From: Faecalibacterium sp. I3-3-89
Lineage (GTDB): Bacteria > Bacillota > Clostridia > Oscillospirales > Ruminococcaceae
Reading direction: 5' to 3'
Assembly: GCF_023347275.1 (NCBI RefSeq)
Contig: NZ_CP094468.1
Span: 2,356,001 to 2,420,000, forward strand
DNA length: 64,000 nucleotides
Shown here in pieces: positions 28,957-50,822 of this stretch (within the stretch, counting starts at the first letter, position 1; each line of letters opens with the position of its first letter). The notes beneath the pieces were generated by a model. That model worked only from the letters and a program-made list of their open reading frames with translations. It made no database searches and had not been told where the DNA came from. Made by a program: the position numbers and the translations under genes.

Positions 28957-28996
28957 CTACGAAATTACAACTTTCCCGTTCGTATCATTCAAAATC

Positions 28997-29155
28997 GGAG
29001 AAACGAGAAAAAAGCTTTTAGCGGAGCGGCTTAGCTTTTTTCCGTTTCGACTTCCTCTTTGGGGTCTGAAAGGGGCGAGCAGCCCCTTTCTCGTGGATCC
29101 AGCGCGTCGAAATCGCTGGTGGTTTTCTGGTTCTCTTTTGACACCAAAAGAGAAC
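28997..29155 (+). repeat. Multi-hairpin repeat, copy A1
   Basis: About 160 bases between ecfT and truA with four consecutive stems: H1 GAAAAAAGCT/AGCTTTTTTC (29007-29016/29033-29042), H2 GAAAGGGGC-GAGCA-GCCCCTTTC (29068-29090), H3 CCAGCG/CGCTGG around TCGAAA (29099-29119), H4 GTTCTCTTTTG/CAAAAGAGAAC (29130-29155). It is about 90 percent identical to copy A2 at 50601 over the last 110 bases. Strand is arbitrary. Confidence 0.85.
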
Positions 29156-29169
29156 AAATTCCTCGCTCT

Positions 29170-50223: not shown

Positions 50224-50329
50224 TCGGATAATACTCTCTTTCTCTCTTGAGGGTCTGTTATAACGACTTGATGTGGGGTTGTTTTTTAGCTGGCTTGCGC
50301 GCTGGTGGCGCGGGGGATGTTTTTTCTTT
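50224..50329. other. Upstream region of rimO adjoining the repeat block
   Basis: About 100 bases with a GCGCGCTGGTGGCGC-like imperfect hairpin near 50298-50313. No gene seen. The promoter of rimO was not recognised. Confidence 0.4.
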
Positions 50330-50518
50330 TGGTTAAGCGGTTTGCGCTCCGCGCGGGCCAGAGGCAGGGAGGGGTGTTTCGACTCCCCCCTCCCTACCTC
50401 TGGACTCCACTCTCCCCGCAACGAGTTAAGGGCTGCTCGCCCTTAACAATTCCAATGTGGAAGTCGAAACGGAAAAAAGCTAGCCGCTGCGCTTAACGCT
50501 TTTTTCTCGTTTCTCCCA
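50330..50518 (-). repeat. Multi-hairpin repeat, copy A3 (inverted, diverged)
   Basis: Read on the reverse strand it follows the order of A1/A2: H1 GAAAAAAGC/GCTTTTTTC (50471-50508), H2 GTTAAGGGC-GAGCA-GCCCTTAAC (50425-50447), H3 an extended stem CCAGAGG/CCTCTGG still looping around TCGAAA (50358-50403), and CCAAAAGAAAAAAC near 50326-50339 in place of H4. Stem bases differ from A1/A2 on both arms together. Confidence 0.75.
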
Positions 50519-50600
50519 TTTGCTGCTTCGCAGCAGACTTTACGCCCTTGCAGAACGTGAAGTCCTGCGAAAGCGTAACACCATCGGCGGAGCCGTAAAC

Positions 50601-50760
50601 CGGAGAAGTACAAAAAATGCGTTTAGCGAAGCGGCTAGCATTTTTGTGCTTCGACAACTCCTTTGGGGTCTGAAAGGGGCGAGCAGCCCCTTTCTCGTGG
50701 ATCCAGCGCGTCGAAATCGCTGGTGCTTTTCTGGTTCTCTTTTGGCACGCAAAAGAGAAC
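50601..50760 (+). repeat. Multi-hairpin repeat, copy A2
   Basis: Same order as A1 (28997): H1 CAAAAAATGC/GCATTTTTGTG (50611-50650), H2 GAAAGGGGC-GAGCA-GCCCCTTTC (50672-50694), H3 CCAGCG/CGCTGG (50703-50723), H4 GTTCTCTTTTG/CAAAAGAGAAC (50734-50760). Identical to A1 for nearly all of 50660-50740. Confidence 0.85.
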
Positions 50761-50822
50761 ATTAGCCTTAATGAAAGAGCGATTTGACCCGCGCACAGGC
50801 GCGCACGCCTGCTTAAAAAGAA

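Follow-up and report, generated by a model that had tools for sequence, protein, structure and literature searches.

This stretch of Faecalibacterium DNA raises the question of why a repeat that lies between genes should keep its hairpins while the letters of the stems change. The window, meaning the whole 64,000-nt stretch that was analysed, had been predicted to hold three copies of a structured dispersed repeat with compensatory stem changes, and such covariation was taken to imply selection on the folded form, either as RNA or as single-stranded DNA. The questions are whether the covariation is real, which strand is folded and in what form, and which known kind of element the repeat resembles.

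Layout, copy number and range of the repeat

The repeats of the window consist of one solo arm (28992-29155) and the two arms of a single 519-nt element (50284-50802). Their intergenic location, between ecfT and truA and between rimO and recX, agrees with the reading frames; these gene names are our own assumption, read from the sequence and not taken from a database. The two copies originally described as near-identical, each with four successive hairpins (28997-29155 and 50601-50760), were confirmed, with 87% identity between 28992-29156 and 50597-50761 (by BLAST and by eye). The supposed third copy at 50330-50518 is indeed inverted and keeps the order H1-H2-H3, but it is not a separate locus: it forms the left arm of the element that holds the second copy, and is a paralogue without the H4 pseudoknot. 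Its stretch 50421-50521 matches the first copy (28992-29156) at 84%, and the overlap of this stretch with the second copy shows 72% identity. The stem differences ascribed to this arm are all present, namely H2 GAAAGGGGC/GCCCCTTTC versus GTTAAGGGC/GCCCTTAAC, H1 AGC/GCT versus TGC/GCA, and a longer H3 that retains its TCGAAA loop. The pseudoknot at the 3' end of the R arm had been missed. The features of the window are given below with their strand.

28992..29155 (+): solo R arm between ecfT and truA, folding on the + strand and antisense to the two genes
29000..29048 (+): H1 of the solo arm, an A-tract/T-tract hairpin with a G+C hairpin inside
29068..29090 (+): H2 of the solo arm, GAGCA loop
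29099..29119 (+): H3 of the solo arm, loop containing GTCGAAA
29119..29122 (+): S1a of the solo arm, GTGG, the pseudoknot strand; three of its four bases pair with ACAC of the H4 loop
29123..29128 (+): linker L1 of the solo arm, TTTTCT, the putative third strand of a triplex
29130..29155 (+): H4 / S2 of the solo arm, loop ACAC
50284..50802 (+): complete element in the recX-rimO gap, with inverted L arm, spacer, R arm and terminal hairpins
50298..50312 (+): left terminal hairpin CGCGCTGGTGGCGCG
50358..50403 (-): L-arm H3, 17-bp stem, loop GTCGAAAC
50425..50447 (-): L-arm H2, GTTAAGGGC stem, GAGCA loop kept on the - strand
50466..50513 (-): L-arm H1
50605..50652 (+): R-arm H1 of the full element
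50672..50694 (+): R-arm H2 of the full element
50703..50723 (+): R-arm H3 of the full element
50723..50732 (+): R-arm S1a GTGC and L1 TTTTCT of the full element
50734..50760 (+): R-arm H4 / S2 of the full element, loop GCACG (S1b GCAC)
50790..50803 (+): right terminal hairpin CGCGCACAGGCGCG

On either strand the 181-nt R arm folds better than 200 of 200 shuffles, with z of -3.8 and -4.1. The 511-nt element reaches z = -10.6, which we think is mostly because its L and R arms are mutual inverted copies. In the source genome (2.816 Mb), 20 repeat loci were merged by hand from the 71 BLAST pieces found with a 751-base query, and a 181-base query gave 44 matches. With 20 loci in this genome and 15 of 31 Faecalibacterium genomes positive, the family is not a mere duplication into three copies. 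All 34 genome matches of the terminal-hairpin motif CGCGCTNGTNGCGCG lie at element loci, and a reversed control pattern gave one match. Full elements of L arm, spacer and R arm, with the arms inverted, occupy 16 of the 20 loci. Departures from this layout are e12, the solo R arm of the ecfT-truA gap in the window; e09, an R arm without L; e15, with its centre deleted; and e01 (L063, G000:C1:23884-26105), where about 1.7 kb of foreign DNA, preceded by a run of 23 C and 9 A, replaces part of the L arm. The terminal hairpins are mutually inverted, yet ragged and at times tandem. Additionally, a structured insert of about 115 nt, beginning GACRGGTTGCGG, sits in the H1 loop at 6 of the 20 loci (e03, e05, e09, e10, e16 and e19); e03 carries a second one, inverted, between H2 and H3, and the insert may therefore itself be mobile.

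A covariance-model search of the genus, with 128 candidates scored in each genome, was positive at E <= 0.001 for 15 of the 31 Faecalibacterium genomes; among the matches listed, those of 14 of the 31 genomes were strong, or 14 of 22 when the good genomes are considered. Under stricter filters, 5 of 295 genomes of the order matched, the three outside the genus weakly, at 29-37 bits. These are G274 (four matches), G043, judged a chance match, and G124, judged partial. The exact H2 motif was found on named contigs in 6 stretches, all of F. longum, a search from which records of the source genome were possibly left out. The pattern GTGCN{5,8}GGTTACTTTN{6,24}AAAGTAAC matched none of 398 genomes drawn from the phylum, a draw that did not include G274. 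Its match on viral contig L203 was dismissed as chance, the layout being absent. Viral contigs L204 and L205 match the Faecalibacterium H4 unit, and four unannotated faecal phage records match the repeat of the genus. Plasmids gave no match to this repeat or to L308, and phages none to L308. Short-read contigs of genome G005 (C20, C34, C63 and C77) end within the repeat, for which reason draft assemblies probably undercount it.

Covariation of the stems and of the 3' pseudoknot

Covariation was assessed in an alignment (A1) of 36 distinct R arms, from H2 to H4, taken from 8 genomes (the source genome, G003, G005, G006, G007, G010, G015 and G041). The arms were collected by a pattern in which the letters of the H2 core (GGGCGAGYAGCCC) and of the H4 3' strand (AAAAGAGWAC) were set beforehand, and invariance at these places is therefore partly built in. 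When H2, H3, H4 and the S1 helix are imposed, standard pairs fill 97.7% of the 1007 cells. The alignment has a covariation score of 0.250, as against 0.088 +- 0.008 in shuffles, none of 500 being as high, and structures slid by 1-3 columns score 0.019-0.071. The number of A1 pairs with two-sided change is not above chance (equalled in 83 of 500 shuffles), nor is that of further pair types (334 of 500 as high). H2 is paired in 100% of cells; H3 is unpaired in six sequences, and misalignment is thought to be the cause. In the R arms, H2, H3, the pseudoknot and one outer H4 pair (81/103, T-A in 32 sequences and A-T in 4) covary. The stem covariation is real, and the score upholds the original view that it implies selection on the folded form.

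H2 illustrates the pattern most fully, with ten stem sequences among the loci fetched, nine of them fully Watson-Crick and the tenth (ATCAGGGGC) so except for one G-U pair; the rare stems sit within the normal family layout. For instance, at the ecfT-truA site of the closest relative, G005 (TruA 95% and RimO 96% identical), a solo R arm has a fully paired H2 of ATCAAGGGC/GCCCTTGAT instead of the GAAAGGGGC/GCCCCTTTC of the window. Two H2 types and two H3 types occur in all four combinations, so exchange between copies contributes to the diversity. Since the types assort freely, stems were possibly swapped whole, with fewer independent compensatory events than the cell counts would indicate. The same free assortment, together with the fact that L and R arms substitute for each other at a single site, would suit a neutral account in which the copies are remnants of an old spread, kept alike by gene conversion, with covariation produced by swapping of whole stem cassettes. 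Swapping alone, however, cannot yield ten stems each with its own partner, nor the long-range changes of S1 described next, and broken stems are almost never caught, as the complete pairing of H2 indicates. The neutral account is accordingly regarded as quite improbable.

The 3-4 bases between H3 and H4 of the R arms are complementary to the H4 loop, and the S1 alleles include GTGC/GCAC, GTGG/CCAC, GCAC/GTGC or GTGT, GCGC/GCGC and GCCC/GGG. In A1, pairs 69/92, 70/91 and 71/90 are formed in 35 of 36, 35 of 35 and 32 of 36 sequences, and all three counted pairs show two-sided changes; the covarying helix between a loop and an upstream strand that characterises an H-type triplex pseudoknot is thereby found. 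Among 16 alleles, 8 pair at 4 of 4 positions, 6 at 3 of 4 and 2 at none; the unpaired exceptions noted are L198 of G041 and one GCGC/TGCGG allele. A kissing interaction between GTCGAAA and TTTCGAC was also considered and dropped because the partner is absent in arms of the G003/G006 type.

The linker L1 is TTTTCT in all 36 A1 rows, and the H4 pairs that face it are likewise invariant. Read in parallel, TTTTCT has the letters of a pyrimidine third strand for AAAAGA in the H4 3' strand, and L1 may accordingly act as the third strand of base triples in H4. A wider set was collected by covariance model with the letters unfixed (113 matches, 86 loci, 87 distinct rows). TTTTCT with the same H4 occurs in 64 of these 87 rows. 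CTTTCT, in 6 rows, marks a subfamily with an insert after H3 (G010, G035, G040 and G042), in which an adjacent complementary S1a was not seen by eye. ATTTCT or GTTTCT, without S1a, occurs in 5 rows, four of which are an H4 of the source genome adjoining a terminal hairpin. Furthermore, 3 rows have the form of G274 and 9 end before any H4. G274 belongs to another family of the order and presents, in order, H2, H3 with an ATCGAAA loop, GTGCC, TTCTTT, GG and an H4 with loop GGCACG. In the three of its four matches that were read (L168, L171 and L172), S1 is GTGCC/GGCAC and the linker TTCTTT agrees with AAGAAA.

Viral contigs offer a comparison in which the linker was left unspecified, the contigs being picked by GGTTACTTT...AAAGTAAC alone. 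Among the matches listed there are 110 distinct hits at 113 loci, of which 14 have TTT before GG where base composition expects 2.9; roughly five of the 14 look like chance. In these 14 hits among the matches listed, the agreement between linker and stem purines beyond the fixed part sums to 33, compared with 10.3 +- 4.1 for permuted linkers, and none of 5000 permutations reaches that sum. An earlier run of 85 hits, some of them from patterns that fixed certain linker bases, had 19 ending in TTT and a linker sum of 50 versus 17.9 +- 4.9 (0 of 2000). The S1 length in that run was 3.37 versus 2.73 +- 0.22 (0 of 300), 9 of the 19 having at least 4. Moreover, the related viral contigs L282 and L375/L376 differ in S1 (TCAG/CTGA versus TCGG/CCGA) and also in linker and stem together, with T beside a T-A pair in the former and C beside a C-G pair in the latter. 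The putative base triples of the first loop follow the sequence rule, with linker and stem covarying. The pseudoknot layout is also present on a plasmid of Ilyobacter (Fusobacteriota), read at one of the six places given by BLAST.

These occurrences suggest a wider reading, in which various dispersed structured elements would make up a class so far unrecognised, with the triplex pseudoknot as their common 3' end and with folded RNA as what is recognised and propagated, like SINEs. Members of the class would occur in several phyla, namely Bacillota, Fusobacteriota and those of the hosts of diverse viral contigs; Faecalibacterium would have its multi-hairpin form, and double-stranded DNA would not be the propagated unit. 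Such a class is a speculative proposal that we consider unlikely at present. Truncation at the 5' end, as by reverse transcription, was set aside, several short copies of G005 lying at contig ends (C20, C63, C77 and C34) and another, on C35, within 500 nt of one; the support remaining for it is an H4 remnant in the recX-rimO gap of G005.

Genomic placement and the nature of the folded strand

Genes were called with our own codon-usage caller, which misses some genes. By these calls, 16 of the 20 loci of the source genome lie between same-direction genes, 2 between convergent and 2 between divergent ones. Among 58 R arms of the fetched loci, some of them copies from the source genome, the gene on the H4 side turns its 3' end to H4 in 38 cases and its 5' end in 19, and its direction is unknown in one. 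When this gene is at most 60 nt from H4 (22 R arms), a stop codon faces H4 in 19 and a start codon in 3, part of this bias being expected because start codons need leader space. Both neighbours are antisense to the fold strand in 28 of the 58 R arms and both sense in 12, which is odd for a part of an mRNA.

The abutting stop codons, along with the conservation of sites across species, would be expected of an RNA useful to the host, namely a bidirectional intergenic terminator or 3'-end protector. The A- and T-tracts of H1 would stop transcription, and the other hairpins would shield transcript ends from nucleases; H1 does have an A-tract before and a T-tract after its G+C hairpin on both strands. 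However, a terminator scan gave 0 sites at the solo copy (shuffles 1.2) and 2 at the full copy (shuffles 1.6), which is not above chance, the pseudoknot would be superfluous for termination, and convergent gene pairs are rare beside same-direction ones at the loci counted above. The polarity of wobble pairs, described below, also favours the strand antisense to the abutting gene. A terminating or protecting role is considered fairly unlikely. A sigma-70-like promoter was seen at neither window copy, and transcription of the repeat is a conjecture.

Wobble pairs give an indication of the folded strand. At allele level, the fold orientation has 20 G-U cells (4 in H2, 10 in L-arm H3 and 6 in the pseudoknot) and 9 A-C cells (3 in each). 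The comparison becomes 20 to 2 after exclusion of two H2 cells of the deletion chimera e15, three pseudoknot cells of the unpaired variant L198 and two L-arm cells from rows that duplicate others, taken from the other strand. As the alleles are related, this polarity is a lean and not a proof. Together with the pseudoknot, and with the favoured strand mostly not being the one exposed at the replication fork, it makes RNA probably the more likely form of the folded strand than DNA.

The position relative to the fork was obtained from 8 single-contig Faecalibacterium genomes (72 loci among the matches listed, tandem hits merged), with dnaA located as reference and some genome lengths rounded. 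The origin-proximal half holds 66 of these 72 loci (KS p 7e-18), and the fold strand runs against the fork in 56 of the 72 (p 2e-6), although sites common to several species mean that the loci are not independent. The origin bias is absent in G037 (3 loci) and G032 (1) taken singly, and in G040 only 7 of 12 fold strands run against the fork. As a control, 200 kb near the terminus and near the origin contain 60 and 70 gene gaps of at least 100 nt, 0 and 6 R anchors, and 56% and 60% G+C, respectively; another repeat motif is likewise rarer at the terminus (1 versus 4).

Many copies keep their site from species to species. Flanks were compared with those of loci that had been fetched because they bear the repeat: for 10 of the 20 loci both flanks, and for 3 further loci one flank, point to a copy in the same gap of another species. 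L and R arms replace one another at a single site. In other species the truA and rimO sites are vacant or filled by other repeats, and the e19 and e20 sites of G006 are vacant. By eye, the empty truA (G007) and rimO (L110, L111, L115 and L120) sites show no clean target-site duplication. Long persistence was noticed in the neighbourhoods of e18 and e20, which we take from their sequence, unaided by databases, to be parA-parB-like and mnmG-like.

Two other repeat families were noticed at such sites. One, the dispersed family CTCAGTC ... CAGCTCCC with inverted hairpins, is found at the truA loci L081, L082 and L083 and at L172 (G274); the intergenic sites that it uses, both in Faecalibacterium and in a different family of the order, are of the same kinds. 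The other, GTGAAAAT ... TTCCGCTG ... GCGGAG..CATTTTAAAT, fills the recX-rimO gap in other species and was seen at the rimO loci L114, L116-L119 and L121.

Relation to known systems and a possible mode of life

Bacterial MITEs are short, non-coding, multi-copy intergenic elements with inverted terminal ends. The repeat resembles them in being short, non-coding, multi-copy and intergenic, and perhaps in its inverted terminal hairpins. It differs in having conserved unpaired loops and a covarying pseudoknot, and neither a clean target-site duplication, at the empty sites compared, nor a parent transposon was found for it. Triplex pseudoknots are represented by telomerase RNA, the SAM-II and preQ1-II riboswitches and ENE elements, which share with the repeat an H-type pseudoknot whose first loop, rich in U, lies opposite a second stem rich in A-U. 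Unlike these, which are single genes or riboswitches, the repeat is a dispersed family, and its triples are predicted from the letters.

REP and REPIN sequences, according to PMC3116915 and PMC3733652, are dispersed intergenic palindromes with inverted doublets, solo remnants and compensatory stem changes, and in each of these respects the repeat is like them; 16 of the 20 loci of the source genome are inverted doublets. It is unlike REPs, which measure 20-40 bp, in that its arms are about 160 nt long with four hairpins and a pseudoknot. The short palindrome with a terminal GTAG or GTRG tag is wanting: the arms were seen to have no GTAG-tagged end, and in 33 of the 34 genome matches of CGCGCTNGTNGCGCG the GTRG lies inside the terminal hairpin and not at its end. 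Additionally, no repeat-flanked RAYT was found. A search for an associated REP-type TnpA, proposed in the original prediction, gave no support for such a partner: the single Y1 match of the genome (PF01797; L056, G000:C1:2706600-2706956) is an ordinary IS200-type TnpA of 144 aa, unflanked by the repeat, about 18 kb from the nearest copy and with ends unlike it. An autonomous relative was not seen among the sequences read. A TnpB/omega-RNA element was rejected, with 0 matches of PF07282 in the source genome.

These comparisons bear on the explanation that a transposase moves the repeat as a folded single strand of DNA, in the manner of a REP/REPIN or a MITE, its RNA being irrelevant. Inverted doublets, solo remnants, terminal hairpins, dispersed intergenic copies and compensatory stems recall REPINs (PMC3116915), and the fold strand against the fork in 56 of the 72 loci among the matches listed would also agree. 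On the other hand, the sole Y1 transposase and the untagged ends are not those of such a system, and the strand favoured by G-U pairs would mostly be the leading-strand template, which is presumably less exposed. Movement as DNA alone is thus somewhat unlikely in our estimate.

In Rfam 15, matches above the gathering score in the whole window are to rRNA and tRNA; at the element the matches are merely sub-threshold and of miRNA type, and no fitting family was found at the relatives searched. The H2 region of G274 resembles Clostridiales-2 RNA (RF02937), sharing GGGGGU, a hairpin and a CGU linker in the same order. This match scores 28.4 bits, far below the gathering score of 58.6, its aligned model stops before the pseudoknot, and the three Faecalibacterium loci searched (L008, L036 and L046) gave no match. 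The literature search recognised no description of the repeat. The passages covered from the main text of the survey PMC8040213, which has 3161 candidates, make no mention of Faecalibacterium, and one of the candidates may overlap the family. The repeat may also have been listed before as an anonymous candidate, e.g. in Weinberg 2017.

On balance, we lean towards a non-autonomous, REPIN-like mobile repeat that is selected for its folded single strand, probably RNA. The working unit would be the arm of about 160 nt, one strand of which folds into H1, H2 and H3, with R arms ending in an H-type pseudoknot: S1a after H3 would pair with the H4 loop, and the U-rich linker would lie in the deep groove of H4 as a third strand of U*A-U and C+*G-C triples. 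Two diverged arms, L and R, are joined head to head into the full element, solo arms also occurring. The fold would be under selection because recognition or function depends on the folded single strand, and copies would spread in a REPIN-like manner by an enzyme acting in trans and by exchange among themselves. The explanations weighed here overlap, and the confidence attached to each need not sum to one.

If this reading is right, a major human gut genus has a dispersed repeat in which compensatory evolution is plain to see, together with a triple-helix pseudoknot found again in unrelated bacteria. The repeat would also provide a testable case of what maintains folding in short non-autonomous repeats, the candidates being a mobiliser that acts in trans, a partner that binds RNA or a function at the ends of transcripts. 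Further leads would be the bias towards the origin and the lasting occupation of the e18 and e20 sites.
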